Shown here in pieces: positions 5,838 through 31,408 of a DNA stretch of 64,000 nucleotides. The notes beneath the pieces are model-generated. The model searched no databases. It was not told the DNA's origin and worked only from the letters and a program-made list of their open reading frames with translations. Made by a program: the position numbers and the translations under genes. Numbering within the stretch: position 1 is the first letter of the stretch; every line of letters begins with the position of its first letter. Source of the stretch: Pontibacterium granulatum (lineage in GTDB: Bacteria; Pseudomonadota; Gammaproteobacteria; Pseudomonadales; Balneatricaceae); assembly GCF_029961155.1 (NCBI RefSeq), contig NZ_JASBRH010000002.1, positions 62,001-126,000 on the forward strand, given 5' to 3'.

Positions 5838-5858
5838 TGATATGATTGTCCTGCAATC
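5838..5858 (+). promoter_or_regulatory. Extended -10 promoter and putative auto-operator of the GntR/FadR gene
   Basis: TGATATGAT at 5838-5846 fits an extended -10 element. Overlapping it at 5844-5858 is GATTGTCCTGCAATC, which differs at only two central positions from the core of the long palindrome over the BCCT promoter (GATTGTCCAACAATC). Binding here would cover the -10 and start site, implying negative autoregulation. This is inferred from sequence alone. Confidence 0.6.
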
Positions 5859-5885
5859 GACAATGTGATGGGTATTCAGGAAGAG

Positions 5886-6524
5886 ATGAATAAATCGGCA
5901 AAGATCAGCAAGCGCAGCCTGGAAAGTCAGGCGGCCGATCTGATGCGGGAAGACATTATAAACGGGAATCTGACCCCGGGAACCCGCTTGGTGGAGACAA
6001 CCCTGGCCAAAGAGTATGGCTTGTCCCGTGGCACCATCCGTATCGCACTGCACCAGTTGGGGAGCGAAGGGTTGGTAACCCAGGTTCCTTATGCCGGCTG
6101 GTCGGTTACTGAACTGAACGATCAGGACCTGTGGGAGCTGTATACCCTACGCGCCACATTGGAAGGGATGGCGGCGCGCTTGGCGGCAGAGCGGATCTGT
6201 GAGGAGGGAGCTGAGCGATTGCGTGAGGCCTATCAGCAACTTCTGGCTTTATGTAAGTTGGGGGATCTCAAGGCGATCACCCGCGCCGATCTGGATCTCC
6301 ACAAGCTGATTATCGAATTGTCCAGTCACTCCCGCTTAGCCAGTCAGTACCAACTGGTCGAGAACCAGTTTCTGGCTTATATCGCGGCCGCCAACCGGGA
6401 CTTTGAACCGGAGAGTGTGGGCCTCAGTCATGCAGCCCTGGTGGAGGCAATCTGCGAAGGGGAGAGTGATAGGGCGGAAGCGGAGGCAATCCGTAATATC
6501 ACCGGCTTTGAGGAGCTAAGATAA
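5886..6524 (+). CDS. FadR-subfamily (FCD) GntR transcriptional regulator
   Basis: The 212-residue protein has an N-terminal GntR winged helix at about residues 10-75, with the recognition-helix region EYGLSRGTIRIALHQL, and an all-helical FCD effector domain. The FCD domain keeps the metal-site residues in DLDLHKL and the GLSHAALVEA helix. FCD regulators usually bind small organic acids. The gene converges on the two enolase-superfamily genes, and matching operator-like palindromes lie at its own promoter and at the BCCT promoter, so it probably represses that operon until the substrate is present. The frame also has upstream GTG and ATG codons at 5865 and 5868; the ATG at 5886 is chosen for its aggaag ribosome site. 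Confidence 0.88.
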   Translation: MNKSAKISKRSLESQAADLMREDIINGNLTPGTRLVETTLAKEYGLSRGTIRIALHQLGSEGLVTQVPYAGWSVTELNDQDLWELYTLRATLEGMAARLAAERICEEGAERLREAYQQLLALCKLGDLKAITRADLDLHKLIIELSSHSRLASQYQLVENQFLAYIAAANRDFEPESVGLSHAALVEAICEGESDRAEAEAIRNITGFEELR

Positions 6525-6534
6525 GCAAACAGCT

Positions 6535-6556
6535 AAAGGCGTCAGCCGACGCCTTT
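6535..6556. terminator. Bidirectional terminator between gntR and the dehydratase gene
   Basis: A perfect 9-bp stem, aaaggcgtc/gacgccttt, with an agcc loop sits between the two convergent genes. The T-rich ends on both strands suit termination of both transcripts. Confidence 0.75.
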
Positions 6557-6575
6557 GTTCGTTTCGGGAGCTCTG

Positions 6576-7709
6576 CTAGGTAACTCGGTAACGCTGGATG
6601 ATCTCATCATCCAGCTCCATCCCCAGACCAGGCCCCGTTGGCAGTGGGATCATCCCGTCGAGGGTGATCTGAGGGCCGTTCGTTGCGAGCTGCCAGCGTA
6701 AAGGGGATGTGGAGGTTGAAAACTCCACGTATTCCGCCTTCGGTTGTACAGCCAGAAAATGCAGGTTGGCCGCCAGGGTGAGGTCCGTATTCCAACCGTG
6801 GGGAATCAGTCGGCAGCTATGTTCAGCGGCCATGCCTGCTATCTGTTTCAGTGCGGTGAAGCCGCCTACCCAGCTGATGTCGGGTTGGGCGATATCAATG
6901 CCCGCCTCGGTAAAGAACGGGGTCCACTCTGCAGGGGCGGTCAGGCCCGTATCCCCGGCACCGACCGGTATGTTCGCAGCGCGCAGGGCGGCGAATTGAT
7001 CGATGAGATCCAGTGGGAATGCTGCTTCAAGCCACTGAATCCGACACTCATGCAATGCAGGCAAAAGTGGCTCCAGTTCCTGATAGCTGCGAAAGCTGGC
7101 AGTCGCGTCCAGCATCAGCTCCATCTCATCACCCACAAAACGACGTGCGGCACAGAGCAGCTCCGCGCCGAGTTCAGGCTCCTCCCGCCAGAAGGGATCA
7201 ATCGCCAGTTTCAGGGCCCTGACCGGGTACACCATCGCCCGCTCCAGTGCCTGTTGCAGTTCTGTCACTGTACGTCCCAACGGGTAGACGGTTGTATAGG
7301 CAGGCAGGTGTTGCTGCTGAACATTACCCAGCAGTTCGGCTACCGGTTTTTTTTCCAGTTTGCCTAACAGGTCCCACAAGGCGATATCGACACCACTGAT
7401 GGCATGCATGACAACGCCACGCCGTCCGCAGTAGCTGGTTTGGTGATACATCTTCTGCCACAGGTCGCTAATATCCGTCGGGTCCTGGCCCAGCAGGATC
7501 GACTTCAGACCCATCAGCGTGTTGATGCGGGGAGGTGCGTCAACGATTGCTTTTATAACCGAGGGTAAGCTGTCGACCTCGGCAATACCGCTGACCCCGG
7601 CGTCCGTATCAATCCGGATCAAGCAGTTGTTATTGGTCGGATCCAGGTCCAGTTCGCGCTGACCGGGTACCCGCAGCTCAATGACTTCGACATCTGTTAT
7701 TTGAACCAC
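6576..7709 (-). CDS. Enolase-superfamily (mandelate racemase type) acid dehydratase or epimerase
   Basis: The 377-residue protein has the capping domain plus TIM-barrel architecture of the mandelate racemase/muconate lactonizing group. Predicted metal ligands are Asp201 (MLDATAS), Glu228 (WLEAAFP) and Asp253 (VGAGD). The His304-Asp277 dyad (IPHGWN, QPDISWVGG) is the mandelate-racemase general base. Lys167 is present, but the second lysine of the usual KxK is alanine, so one face of the active site may lack its base. It starts at GTG immediately after the stop of the upstream enolase paralogue, indicating translational coupling. The substrate should be a carboxylate with an acidic alpha-proton, taken up by the operon's BCCT transporter; its identity is unknown. 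Confidence 0.85.
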   Translation of the reverse strand: MVQITDVEVIELRVPGQRELDLDPTNNNCLIRIDTDAGVSGIAEVDSLPSVIKAIVDAPPRINTLMGLKSILLGQDPTDISDLWQKMYHQTSYCGRRGVVMHAISGVDIALWDLLGKLEKKPVAELLGNVQQQHLPAYTTVYPLGRTVTELQQALERAMVYPVRALKLAIDPFWREEPELGAELLCAARRFVGDEMELMLDATASFRSYQELEPLLPALHECRIQWLEAAFPLDLIDQFAALRAANIPVGAGDTGLTAPAEWTPFFTEAGIDIAQPDISWVGGFTALKQIAGMAAEHSCRLIPHGWNTDLTLAANLHFLAVQPKAEYVEFSTSTSPLRWQLATNGPQITLDGMIPLPTGPGLGMELDDEIIQRYRVT

Positions 7710-8828
7710 TTAACCACCTATCGTGTAGTGCCAGACTGCGTGATCCTGAACCGCCTGCCAATCCATTGTGATACCCAGGCCAGCGCCGGAAGGGGCCCGG
7801 ACTTGACCGTCTACTGTGCGTATTGGTGTTAAGCAGCAGGCTTCGTGGCTGGGATAAGGTACAGGCTGTTCGAAGTACTGACTGTTAGGCAGCGATAACA
7901 TCAGGTGCAGGTTAGCGGCCTGAGTAAGGCTGTAACCCCAGGACTGCAGTTCAAGGTTTAAACCATTGGCTTCTGCCAGGGCTGCAATAGTGCGACCGGC
8001 GGTAAAGCCACCGGCATAGGTAACGTCGGTGCGCAGTGCATCCCAGGCGTCCTCTTTCAGGGCCAGATTCAGAAGGCCCGGGGTGAGCAGGGTGTTGCCG
8101 GCCGGCAGTACCGGAACCGTCGTCGCACTGCGCAGTTCGGCATAACCGCGCAGGTCGGTATCCAGCAAAGGGGCTTCCAGCCAGACACAGTTCATCTTCT
8201 CCAGGCGTTTGGCGATGACTAATGCATCCTGGCGGTTGTAACGTTCCTCCAGATCGATCATAAATGGCAATTCAGAGCCAAAGACTTCTTCGATTGTATC
8301 GAGCAGCGCCAGATCCTGCTCCAGATTGCACCAGACATGGAATTTGATCGTACGGTGTCCCTGGGCCAGCAGTTGCCGGACAAAAGCCACATACTCGGAT
8401 GGCTGATCGAATACCGGTGTGCTGGCATAGGCATCGATGCTGTTGCGGCTGCCGCCCAACAGACGGTAGAGCGGCAGATCCAGCGCCTTGGCTTTGAGGT
8501 CCCATAAGGCGATATCGATGATCGATTGGGGTTTTGGTGTCATGCTGTTGTAGCGCCCCATCAGGTGTTGCCAAATCGCATCCGTATGCCAGGCGTTGCG
8601 CCCCAGCAATTCCGGTAGCAGGGACTTCAGGGCGGCTGCCGGCGCGCTGTCAAAGTCGTGTTCCGAGTAGGTGGTAATCCCAGCGAATCCTTGCGCACCA
8701 CAACGGGTGTTCAGGCGCAGCAGGGTCAGGGTTTCAAATACTTCGCCCATATCTCCCGCCAAGCGGTAACGCTCCACCGGAGGTGTAACGGCGAAGACCT
8801 CTGCACTTTTAATTTCAAGCTCTTTCAT
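7710..8828 (-). CDS. Divergent enolase-superfamily enzyme with atypical active-site residues
   Basis: This 372-residue paralogue has the same two-domain fold. Likely metal ligands are Asp192 (MIDLEERY), Glu218 (WLEAPLL) and, unusually, Asn244 (LPAGN), where most relatives have Glu or Asp. The second-strand motif is Lys162-x-His164 instead of KxK, and the seventh-strand histidine is replaced by QSW (295-297), although the dyad-position aspartate (TDV, Asp268) remains. The catalytic bases therefore differ from its neighbour, and it probably performs a different step, for example epimerisation versus dehydration, on the same substrate class. It lies 68 nt downstream of the BCCT gene and abuts the next gene with no gap. 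Confidence 0.82.
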   Translation of the reverse strand: MKELEIKSAEVFAVTPPVERYRLAGDMGEVFETLTLLRLNTRCGAQGFAGITTYSEHDFDSAPAAALKSLLPELLGRNAWHTDAIWQHLMGRYNSMTPKPQSIIDIALWDLKAKALDLPLYRLLGGSRNSIDAYASTPVFDQPSEYVAFVRQLLAQGHRTIKFHVWCNLEQDLALLDTIEEVFGSELPFMIDLEERYNRQDALVIAKRLEKMNCVWLEAPLLDTDLRGYAELRSATTVPVLPAGNTLLTPGLLNLALKEDAWDALRTDVTYAGGFTAGRTIAALAEANGLNLELQSWGYSLTQAANLHLMLSLPNSQYFEQPVPYPSHEACCLTPIRTVDGQVRAPSGAGLGITMDWQAVQDHAVWHYTIGG

Positions 8829-8896
8829 TCACACAATCCCAAAGTTCGGGGAGTTGTGATCGCCGCCCGATCGGACGGCGGTCACGGTACTCATCT

Positions 8897-10477
8897 TCAG
8901 ATGGTTACGTCTGCGGTTGTTTCTTCGCGGCGAGGGGGATGAACCGCTACCGGCACTGGAGCCACGGCTGGCTGTAGACGGTATTCGTCTTCCCGTAACC
9001 AACGCACCAGGGAGATCGCCATAATGGCGGTGATGAACAGTTGCGGCAGAGCAAGTGTGATCGCCGCGGTCTGCAGCGCTTTCAGACCGCCAACAAACAA
9101 CAGGCTGAGTGGCAGTCCTGCCAGGGCAAACGCCCAGAACAGACGGTGCCAGCGCGCCGGATGTTCATCTTCCTTCAGCTCGACCGTTGCGACAGCCGCC
9201 ATGGTGTAGGCTGCCGAGTCAAACTGGGTGGCGAGGAAGATCAGGGCCAGAATACAGAACAGGGGCAGTATGATGCTGGACAACGGCAAGGAGTTGATCA
9301 CTGCGATAATGGCCGTTGGCGCATCCTTTTCATTCAGCAATGTGGTCACAGACAGGATGTCGTTCAACTCCAGATGCATAGCATAGTTGCCCAGTGCACC
9401 GAAGTAGGCCCAGCAACCCAGGCTGCCAAAGATCAGCATACCGGCGATAACCTGGCGAATGGTGCAGCCGCGGGAGATCTTGGCGACAAACAGCCCCATA
9501 AATGGACCGTACGCGATCCACCACGCCCAGTAGAAAATAGTCCAGCCTTCCGGGAAACCGGAATTGGTCACCGGATCGGTCCAGAAGTTCATGCGTATAA
9601 AGTTCTGGAACATCAGACCGATGCCGTTGGTGGTGGTTTTGAGGATAAACAGGGTCGGACCCACCGCGACAATGAAGACCAGTAGGGCGATTGCCAACCA
9701 GACATTGATATCACTCAGCACCTTAATCCCTTTCTTCAGACCGGAGTACGCGCTGATACCAAAGATGGCTGTGCAGAGCAGCATGACAAATACGCTCAGG
9801 CCCATGGTGTTCTCGATACCCAGGATATCGCTCAGACCCGCTGCCACCATCGGTGTGCCCAGGCCCAGGCTGGTGCCGACACCACCCAGCAAACCAAACA
9901 TAAATAGAATATCGATAACACGACCCAGCGGGCCGTGGGCATGTTTGCCGATCACGCCTTCGCAGGCAGCACTGAGTTTCAATTCCGGCTGCTTGCGGAC
10001 ATGGTAGAGGTACGCCAGAGGAATGGCAGGAACCCCATAGAACGCCCAGGCGGTTATGCCCCAGTGGAACATGCCGTAGGTAGCAGCCCATTCTGCGGCG
10101 GCATCAGAGTTTGCTTCAATGCCCAGTGGTGGTGACTGCAGATAATACGCCCACTCGATCACACCCCAATACAGAATACCGGAACCGATACCGGCGCAGA
10201 ACAGCATGCCGGCCCAGCTAAAAGCGGTGAATTCCGGTTTATCTTCAGGACTACCCAGTTTTACTTGCCCGTAACGGCTCATTGCCAGCCAGACCAGCAG
10301 AACAACAGCCGCGATCCCGCCCCAGAGATAAAGAATGCCAAATTTAGACGTCATGATGCCGAAGGCAGCATTGATAAATGCATTCGCTTGCTCGGGCATG
10401 GCTAGCAAGGGAACGCAGATGCCGAGCAGTACCACCAATGTGGTGACGAAGGTCGGCCAGTCAGTACGAATACCCAT
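8897..10477 (-). CDS. BCCT-family betaine/carnitine/choline-type transporter
   Basis: The 526-residue inner-membrane protein has 12 hydrophobic segments and the BCCT hallmarks. One is the glycine-betaine box around GMFHWGITAWAFYGVPAIPL; the other is the aromatic transmembrane-8 motif around WTIFYWAWWIAYGPFMGLFVA. BCCT proteins import quaternary ammonium or sulfonium zwitterions, or exchange them. The C-terminal tail is short and lacks an obvious osmosensing extension, so a catabolic rather than osmotic role is likely. It is the first gene of the operon with two enolase-superfamily enzymes. The start is set at ATG 10477, with gagg 8 nt upstream; a longer frame to 10567 would run into the promoter. 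Confidence 0.9.
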   Translation of the reverse strand: MGIRTDWPTFVTTLVVLLGICVPLLAMPEQANAFINAAFGIMTSKFGILYLWGGIAAVVLLVWLAMSRYGQVKLGSPEDKPEFTAFSWAGMLFCAGIGSGILYWGVIEWAYYLQSPPLGIEANSDAAAEWAATYGMFHWGITAWAFYGVPAIPLAYLYHVRKQPELKLSAACEGVIGKHAHGPLGRVIDILFMFGLLGGVGTSLGLGTPMVAAGLSDILGIENTMGLSVFVMLLCTAIFGISAYSGLKKGIKVLSDINVWLAIALLVFIVAVGPTLFILKTTTNGIGLMFQNFIRMNFWTDPVTNSGFPEGWTIFYWAWWIAYGPFMGLFVAKISRGCTIRQVIAGMLIFGSLGCWAYFGALGNYAMHLELNDILSVTTLLNEKDAPTAIIAVINSLPLSSIILPLFCILALIFLATQFDSAAYTMAAVATVELKEDEHPARWHRLFWAFALAGLPLSLLFVGGLKALQTAAITLALPQLFITAIMAISLVRWLREDEYRLQPAVAPVPVAVHPPRREETTADVTI

Positions 10478-10554
10478 CTTAGGTACCTCATTTATTTTTA
10501 TTTGTCTGAATCGGTCTTTCCGAATTGTTCGTTTAGTGAACAAGAACAGGGTGG

Positions 10555-10602
10555 ATAATATCATCATATTGTAGATTGTCCAACAATCTACAATATGATG
10601 AT
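10555..10602 (-). promoter_or_regulatory. BCCT operon promoter overlapped by a 20-bp perfect inverted repeat (FadR-type operator)
   Basis: Reading leftward, TTGGAC (10583-10578) and TATTAT (10560-10555) are separated by exactly 17 bp, a good sigma-70 promoter. Over it lies a perfect inverted repeat with 20-bp arms (10560-10579 and 10583-10602) and a 3-nt centre. The core TTGTCCAACAA fits the TNGTNNNACNA pattern known for FadR-subfamily regulators. A bound repressor would block RNA polymerase directly. The downstream gntR gene is the obvious candidate. Confidence 0.75.
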
Positions 10603-10751
10603 TGAAATTATATGCCTAAAAGCTCATCGCTTTAGTGATGCAAAAGCAGCACAACGTGGTATCTGATGTTAGAGCTTAGGCGCTTGGTAAACGGTGGATG
10701 CTGCAGGAAAGATGGAGGTTCTAAGGTTGTTTGGGAGTTATGTGGGTCGCA

Positions 10752-10787
10752 AAAAAGCCACCCTGAGCTAAGCTTCAGGGTAAATTT
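10752..10787 (-). terminator. Hairpin with T tracts on both sides, possible terminator
   Basis: The stem accctga/tcagggt (10760-10766, 10775-10781) encloses a small agct/agct element. On the minus strand it is followed by ggcttttttg, and on the plus strand by aaattttt. It lies between the BCCT promoter and the DUF1289 gene and could stop leftward readthrough from the ABC exporter side. Confidence 0.5.
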
Positions 10788-10829
10788 TTGTTTCTTGAAC
10801 AGGACAAGGTAAGTCGGAGAGACTCAAGG

Positions 10830-11015
10830 ATGCAGATGAAAAGGAACACCGCCCCCTGTGTGCGCAACTGTTGCCTGGATGAGCACGATATCTGTCTCGG
10901 ATGCGGGCGCTCGCTGGAGCAGATCCTCAATTGGAGTGAAGTCGATCAGGCGCAGCGCCAGCTCTGGTTGGACGAGGCGGCCGAGCGACGGCAAAAGCGC
11001 CGCTTGTCGATCTGA
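10830..11015 (+). CDS. DUF1289 family cysteine-rich small protein
   Basis: The 61-residue product has the DUF1289 pattern: Cys-rich CVRNCCLDEHDICLGCGRSL followed by a helical, basic C-terminus (EAAERRQKRR). Four closely spaced cysteines suggest a small metal-binding site. The family is widespread in proteobacteria and has no established function. The ATG at 10830 has ggaga about 10 nt upstream; the ATG at 10836 is an alternative. It is a lone plus-strand gene next to the leftward ABC exporter genes, with its stop 11 nt from theirs. Confidence 0.8.
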   Translation: MQMKRNTAPCVRNCCLDEHDICLGCGRSLEQILNWSEVDQAQRQLWLDEAAERRQKRRLSI

Positions 11016-31116: not shown

Positions 31117-31193
<77 letters not shown>

Positions 31194-31223
31194 ATTTTTG
31201 GAATTATCAACGTAGTTTATTGA

Positions 31224-31300
<77 letters not shown>

Positions 31301-31331
31301 ATTTATTGGAATAATAAACGAATTTTATTGA

Positions 31332-31408
<77 letters not shown>

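Follow-up and report, generated by a model that had tools for sequence, protein, structure and literature searches.

What is the substrate of an operon that combines a BCCT family transporter with two different enolase-superfamily enzymes? The question is raised by a locus from Pontibacterium granulatum, analyzed within a window of 64,000 nucleotides (contig NZ_JASBRH010000002.1, positions 62,001 to 126,000). The initial annotation had described a BCCT gene, two abutting enolase-superfamily genes and a convergent gene for an FCD-type GntR regulator, and had proposed that a trimethylammonium or sulfonium carboxylate is imported and then epimerised and/or dehydrated. The layout is confirmed by the ORF list and by Pfam profiles, with all four genes present at 5886..10477 (Table 1); the interpretation is supported in part. 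With moderate confidence, we propose a catabolic operon, repressed by the FCD regulator, that takes up a zwitterionic hydroxy acid with an onium group (quaternary ammonium or sulfonium) and subjects it to two-face dehydration or beta-elimination.

The GTG start codon of EnoA directly abuts the stop codon of EnoB (spacer of 0). The listed ORF of the BCCT gene begins at 10567, with an ATG that lies within the palindrome, and GAGGTACCTAAG precedes the ATG at 10477. For these reasons, the latter is taken as the start codon.

Table 1. Features of the operon and its flanks (positions are those of the window)
Feature	Position	Strand	Evidence or remarks
FCD-type GntR regulator	5886-6524	+	ORF 5865-6524; FCD 69.5 bits, GntR 54.2 bits
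EnoA, MR/MLE-type enolase-superfamily enzyme	6576-7709	-	MR_MLE_C 136 bits
EnoB, mandelate-racemase/muconate-lactonising-type enzyme	7710-8828	-	MR_MLE_C 148.8 bits
BCCT transporter, DddT-like kind	8897-10477	-	Pfam BCCT family profile (PF02028) 547.7 bits, spanning 2-485 of 485
43-bp perfect palindrome, core ATTGTNNNACAAT	10560-10602	.	20-bp arms, 3-bp centre; upstream of BCCT start
Hairpin between convergent regulator and EnoA genes (possible terminator for both strands)	6534-6557	.	10 pairs; consensus match only
ATTGTC-N8-GACAAT, an imperfect inverted repeat upstream of the regulator gene (may serve autoregulation)	5845-5864	.	spotted by eye

The survey of the EnoA and EnoB families covers 18 loci of Pseudomonadota and Bacillota, that of the window among them. 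The BCCT gene adjoins EnoB in 9 of 10 loci and EnoA in 12 of 14. Seven of eight loci with an EnoA- or EnoB-family gene hold a BCCT gene, versus none of 71 loci with other enolases (flank lengths differ between the two sets). The association of BCCT and enolase genes is not a chance effect. The initial proposal would have been refuted by a lack of operon conservation, but both enolases and BCCT occur together in six loci, the window among them. Among the exceptions, L018 has EnoB without BCCT, and in L108 an EamA transporter accompanies EnoA in place of BCCT. A scan of viral contigs returned three loci, at 23-25% identity.

Several loci that lack EnoB code for UxaAB, a galactarate/altronate-type dehydratase (recognised as PF20629/PF04295 plus a small subunit). 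It is found in 6 of 8 EnoA loci without EnoB versus 0 of 6 with EnoB (hypergeometric 0.009, for loci that are not independent). Because EnoB and UxaAB never co-occur, EnoB probably replaces the UxaAB of sister operons. Such UxaA/GarD-type altronate/galactarate dehydratases, with split subunits as in SuyAB, occupy the place of EnoB beside EnoA, BCCT, FCD regulator and operator. However, their fold is unrelated to that of enolases, and they are absent from the window operon. Single-genome searches, run without a positive control, returned no homologue of UxaA or of an FAD-oxidoreductase in the genome of the host.

The regulator carries a GntR and an FCD domain (Pfam), which assigns it to the FCD-type GntR regulators. 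It is 46.7-50.5% identical to the regulators of six related loci (L014, L044, L088, L108, L109 and L117) and 18.3-23.8% identical to those of seven others. The operator consensus of FCD-type GntR regulators is GT-N3-AC, and TTGTNNNACAA within the perfect palindrome fits this type. The window contains one such palindrome versus 0.02 expected, and one is present in 2 of 100 shuffles. Its core recurs ahead of EnoA genes in six other loci; five of these code for the same regulator type, and five pair EnoA with UxaAB. Eight core sites occur in 7 module loci (147,097 bases) versus three in 1,570,661 bases of other loci. The FCD regulator probably uses the palindrome as its operator. In L014, the regulator type is present without the operator, while L117 has the operator and EnoA and no UxaAB. 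A second operator match in the host genome adjoins genes for RppH-like and HAD proteins; it is taken as a chance match, since a reversed-pattern control also gives one place. The palindrome, the regulator link and the EnoB/UxaAB alternation go beyond the initial annotation.

That the BCCT protein is of the onium type, as suggested initially, agrees with its retained onium cage: it shares 11 of the 12 residues that form the DMSP pocket of DddT. The DMSP transporter DddT of Psychrobacter sp. D2 is the nearest solved structure (PDB 21ff, 612 bits, 54.3% identity), whereas CaiT (3hfx) scores 293 bits. TIGR00842 reaches 499.9 bits, above its cut-off of 407.55. The protein differs from DddT by a Gly in place of Ala99, and its gene adjoins enolases, not dddX/dddB/dddC. 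The cage positions W105, Y112, W140, W313 and W321 (DddT numbering) are kept in all 13 cluster transporters compared, a set that excludes L117, L118 and the row own_L099 (a wrong-strand ORF). The EnoB-adjoining transporters of L100 and L104 share only 30-34% identity with that of the window. According to PMC13270143, the substrate of BCCT transporters is not decidable from sequence, and two DddT-like transporters failed to carry DMSP when assayed.

PF02746 and PF13378 score above cut-off in both enolases, but their active sites differ. EnoA has K167-x-A169, D201, E228, D253, D277 and H304. In the alignment of its family, KxG/A, the beta-7 His and the His-Asp dyad are each kept in 11 of 11 members; among other enolases, 82 of 85 have the beta-7 His. 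EnoB has K162-x-H164, D192, E218 and N245, while Q295 replaces the usual beta-7 His. KxH and the beta-7 Gln are found in 9 of 9 family members, so that the His-Asp dyad (strands 7 and 6) is lacking in the alignment. The three acidic metal ligands typical of the MR/MLE type are D/E/E. At these places, EnoA has D201, E228 and D253, the third being Asp; in EnoB, the third place after D192 and E218 is taken by Asn245 (Gly244 in the MAFFT alignment). On the basis of these residues, each enzyme is predicted to retain a catalytic base on a single face, that of EnoA being opposite to that of EnoB.

The best structure match of EnoB is 4jhm (247 bits), an enolase-superfamily protein with the same GN and QS motif replacing Glu and His. 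For EnoA, it is 3sjn (223 bits; next 151). The 3sjn molecule is named merely as a mandelate racemase/muconate lactonizing protein. It matches the EnoA of Psychrobacter with 585 bits versus the 223 bits for the window EnoA, which is a far more divergent member. With 34-38% identity to its relatives, the window EnoA lacks many residues that are invariant among them and is on a long branch, placed without firm support in the tree. Because of the low identity, the lost invariant residues, the Asp as third ligand and the long branch, its function may have shifted. At E 1e-60, which is too strict to recover its relatives, the window EnoA retrieved only itself among 293 genomes. With the EnoA of Psychrobacter as query, none of 369 genomes of the class gave a match.

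For the reactions, their facial stereochemistry and the repression, we infer the following scheme. The BCCT protein would import the onium hydroxy acid. EnoA and EnoB would each abstract the proton alpha to the carboxylate, the two enzymes acting on opposite faces, and would expel the beta substituent by dehydration or another beta-elimination, thereby covering two stereoisomers or two successive steps. EnoB would act in place of the UxaA-type dehydratase found in sister operons. On binding the substrate as its ligand, the repressor is expected to leave the palindrome.

A carnitine/choline O-acyltransferase gene (353 bits), located between EnoB and BCCT in one Sporosarcina locus (L015), makes carnitine or a hydroxylated carnitine the favoured substrate. 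This lends support to the carnitine-like option raised at the outset. The catalytic His, and the Arg found in carnitine enzymes, are aligned in this protein; the searched plasmids contain no second carnitine acyltransferase. Within the favoured carnitine-like class, the best fit is 2,3-dihydroxy-4-trimethylammoniobutanoate (hydroxycarnitine), the structure of the anemone pheromone anthopleurine, followed by carnitine. The hydroxycarnitine class, taken by itself, is a tentative and rather improbable assignment. Several observations speak against the favoured reading: the acyltransferase is found in one locus only, L018, L108, L117 and L014 are exceptions, the window EnoA is divergent, the L100 and L104 transporters are distant, and UxaA-type enzymes classically require an alpha-hydroxyl.

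It is conceivable, at low probability, that carnitine itself is the substrate, with EnoB and/or EnoA dehydrating D-/L-carnitine to crotonobetaine without CoA. The product would then enter a cluster elsewhere in the host genome (BCCT / ADP-forming CoA ligase / acyl-CoA dehydrogenase / CaiD-like hydratase / CaiE). This cluster fits the idea, as does the L015 acyltransferase adjoining EnoB. However, UxaAB partners EnoA in six loci, and its action on an acid like carnitine, which has no alpha-hydroxyl, is not obvious. Also, the substrate of the host cluster is itself unsure: CaiE is above its cut-off (385 bits, cut-off 305), but the CaiD-like hydratase is below (352 bits, cut-off 500), and the ligase shows similarity to the DMSP lyase DddX as well (261 bits). 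The initial statement that no CoA ligase follows holds at the operon, while this cluster lies elsewhere in the same genome. The CaiTABCDE pathway likewise has a BCCT transporter and carnitine-like chemistry, but its enzymes act on CoA thioesters, whereas the window operon has no CoA enzyme and, in the ORF list, none of the CaiA/B/C/D partners.

It is unlikely that the enolases are ordinary sugar-acid dehydratases while BCCT carries something else. The superfamily neighbours are sugar-acid dehydratases, and the UxaA-type partners belong to a sugar-acid dehydratase family, but the BCCT adjacency is recurrent and specific. Closeness to characterised enzymes had been singled out as a check; neither enolase attains the cut-off of any NCBIfam equivalog for these dehydratases (EnoA: top 148.9, cut-off 650; EnoB: top 120.6, cut-off 500). 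Nor was a sugar-acid transporter, the other anticipated sign, noticed to replace BCCT in any of the 18 loci (one has EamA).

We consider it quite doubtful that EnoA and EnoB form an epimerase or racemase pair whose role is to convert a stereoisomer that cannot be used into one that can. The superfamily does include racemases (mandelate racemase) and the hydroxyproline betaine 2-epimerase HpbD, which also acts on a betaine. However, two-base racemisation requires both bases, and each family retains a base on only one face, so the epimerisation suggested in the initial annotation is not borne out and the pair was rejected. HpbD differs as an epimerase and has other neighbours; its entry is absent among the best 60 of 145 structure matches for EnoA and the best 60 of 167 for EnoB. 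Nothing specific to hydroxyproline betaine, also suggested initially, was found, and the ORF list shows no demethylase gene in the operon.

A further variant, to which we assign a similarly small probability, is that a C-N or C-S bond is cleaved by the enolases, and in sister operons also by UxaAB. An alpha-hydroxy-beta-onium acid would lose trimethylamine or dimethyl sulfide and yield pyruvate or another 2-oxo acid. The absence of further enzymes from the operon would then be accounted for, and lyases that release trimethylamine or DMS would gain a new kind.

Least probable is that DMSP or a close sulfonium analogue is cleaved, one enolase eliminating dimethyl sulfide as a DMSP lyase from a superfamily new to this activity. 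The similarity to DddT and the alpha-proton abstraction with beta-elimination would suit DMSP, but it was rejected as first choice because a DddD-type cluster, complete with a BCCT, an Fe-ADH and an ALDH gene, is present separately in the host. The DddT-like transporters that did not carry DMSP (PMC13270143) as well as the unexplained acyltransferase and UxaAB partners also argue against it.

No such operon is described among the literature matches listed that link enolase or mandelate racemase to betaine, BCCT, carnitine or 3SJN. Two enzyme families with solved structures (3sjn and 4jhm) gain a shared context, regulator, operator and narrow substrate class, and their function thereby becomes directly testable. 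If the favoured reading is right, the operon would provide a route without CoA for onium acids, carnitine-like or other, that are relevant to trimethylamine and methylated-sulfur turnover. It would also be a case of one pathway in which a family of iron-dependent dehydratases and an enolase substitute for each other.

The initial annotation had placed the FCD-GntR regulator, the two enolase-superfamily proteins (EnoA and EnoB) and the BCCT transporter correctly, and Pfam confirmed each family (see the table). Transcription proceeds from BCCT via EnoB to EnoA, with the GTG start of EnoA directly abutting the EnoB stop codon. The convergent regulator is set apart by a hairpin. Elsewhere in the window, three tRNA-Met genes lie in tandem (31117-31408).

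Features of the window operon
Feature	Position	Strand	Evidence or remark
FCD-GntR regulator	5886-6524	+	Pfam
EnoA	6576-7709	-	Pfam
EnoB	7710-8828	-	Pfam
BCCT transporter	8897-10477	-	Pfam
Perfect palindrome, 43-bp	10560-10602		upstream of BCCT; core ATTGTNNNACAAT

Operon conservation, named beforehand as a test, was borne out: both enolases occur with BCCT in six loci (the window, L013, L014, L016, L017 and L118). Among 18 compared loci, window included, BCCT adjoins EnoB in 9 of 10 (exception L018) and EnoA in 12 of 14 (exceptions L108 and L116). The L116 contig stops 0.2 kb past EnoA, and L108 has an EamA transporter (9974-10909) in place of the BCCT of its sister operons, which combine EnoA with UxaAB, a split galactarate/altronate-type dehydratase. 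Scanning genome contigs yielded 79 loci with flanks of about 3 to 21 kb; BCCT was present in 7 of 8 with an EnoA- or EnoB-family gene versus 0 of 71 others. EnoB relatives are rare. Within the order, 3 of 293 genomes, own genome counted, have one (E 1e-60); in another genus (that of G193, perhaps Marinomonas-like), 2 of 48 do. With the Zooshikella EnoA as query, 3 of the order's 390 genomes gave a match (E 1e-70), as did 3 of 37 in the family to which G226 belongs. The genes also occur on plasmids: BCCT accompanies both enolases on those of Psychrobacter urativorans and Pseudomonas sp. MPC6, and EnoB on one from Vibrio. In L118, a window-like EnoA is split over two ORFs (7886-9018) beside intact EnoB, BCCT and flavoprotein genes, which may reflect decay or a sequence error.

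The top structure matches, 4jhm for EnoB (247 bits) and 3sjn for EnoA (223 bits), have entry names without a function, and neither protein reached any NCBIfam sugar-acid dehydratase cut-off. When 105 enolase rows were aligned, all 9 EnoB rows showed K-x-H, and their strand-7 residue was Gln; at this place, His is present in 82 of the 85 other enolases. All 11 EnoA rows have K-x-G/A, the strand-7 His and a strand-6 Asp. In mandelate racemase, one face is served by the final Lys of K-x-K and the other by the strand-7 His. Each family would thus have kept one base, on opposite sides, which fits one-base elimination, unlike racemisation; epimerisation, also proposed initially, suits these enzymes poorly. 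The third metal ligand of EnoB is Asn, or Gly in another alignment, and its family-specific aromatics (positions 54, 166 and 299) could form an onium cage. In a quick LG+G4 tree, the 9 EnoB rows form a single clade (SH-aLRT 100). The branch leading to the window EnoA is long (1.02); the EnoA rows are its nearest neighbours, with no firm placement beyond that. Since the profile used to pick those rows itself contained the window EnoA, the case for its membership comes chiefly from the 3sjn score, the order of the genes and the regulator. Many residues that never vary in the other ten rows are missing from it, so its specificity may have shifted.

The UxaA-type dehydratase occurs in six EnoA loci without EnoB (L044, L056, L088, L108, L109 and L116), is absent from two others (L073 and L117) and was found in 0 of 6 loci holding both enolases (hypergeometric 0.009, calculated by hand with loci treated as unrelated). 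As UxaAB is confined to loci without EnoB, EnoB looks like its substitute, and EnoB-BCCT looks like the constant pair of the non-UxaAB set. A PF12831 flavoprotein recurs beside this pair (L100 10838-12229, L104 6633-7988, L118 11801-13192). On the Pseudomonas plasmid (L014 12303-15573), the enolases are followed downstream by genes for an FAD oxidoreductase, a 2Fe-2S protein, a second FAD oxidoreductase and RidA, possibly an imino-acid dehydrogenase set.

The window regulator shares 46.7-50.5% identity with its counterparts in L014, L044, L088, L108, L109 and L117 but 18.3-23.8% with those in seven further loci. The palindrome core (probable operator core) occurs once in the window versus 0.02 expected, and in two places in the whole genome, one probably by chance. 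L044, L088 (two sites), L108, L109, L116 and L117 have it 5' of their EnoA genes; in the window, it precedes BCCT. It was not found in L014, and L116 has no visible regulator because its contig is short. Module loci contain 8 sites in 147,097 bases versus 3 in 1,570,661 bases of other loci. The shared regulator type and operator core therefore tie the window operon to the EnoA-UxaAB operons.

The best solved relative of the window BCCT is the DMSP transporter DddT (612 bits, 54.3% identity; carnitine transporter CaiT, 293 bits). Of the 12 DMSP-pocket positions of DddT, as listed in PMC13270143, 11 are unchanged. Such a cage would ask for an onium group in the substrate. In Sporosarcina, a carnitine/choline O-acyltransferase (L015 11325-13100; PF00755, 353 bits) lies between EnoB and BCCT; PLSDB plasmids held no homologue at E 1e-30. 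Aligned to carnitine enzymes, it has retained both the catalytic His and the carboxylate-holding Arg, for which choline acetyltransferase has Asn. The acyltransferase would ask for a carnitine-like hydroxyl. UxaA-type enzymes and most enolase dehydratases require an alpha-hydroxyl and a beta leaving group. Carnitine satisfies all these demands except the alpha-hydroxyl, and 2,3-dihydroxy-4-trimethylammoniobutanoate satisfies them all together. Anthopleurine has a structure of this kind; it is an anemone alarm pheromone (PMC6270930).

The host has other BCCT clusters. DMSP is probably degraded separately, via a DddD-type cluster (L094 5073-12990, C44; compare those described in PMC8163506) encoding an 837-aa double CoA-transferase III, BCCT, Fe-ADH, ALDH and a LysR-like regulator. 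A second cluster (L098 6162-15634, C55) comprises BCCT, an ADP-forming ligase also resembling DddX (261 bits), acyl-CoA dehydrogenase, HCDH, hydratases, a CaiD-like protein and CaiE. It could accept crotonobetaine; its substrate may be of the carnitine or the DMSP type. At a further locus (L097 7726-10729, C9), BCCT adjoins a Rieske oxygenase resembling the glycine betaine monooxygenase GbcA (427 bits; cut-off 670).

We consider the chances of the general mechanism to be about evenly balanced. The window operon itself is real, conserved and regulated, and adds a new variant to bacterial betaine catabolism.
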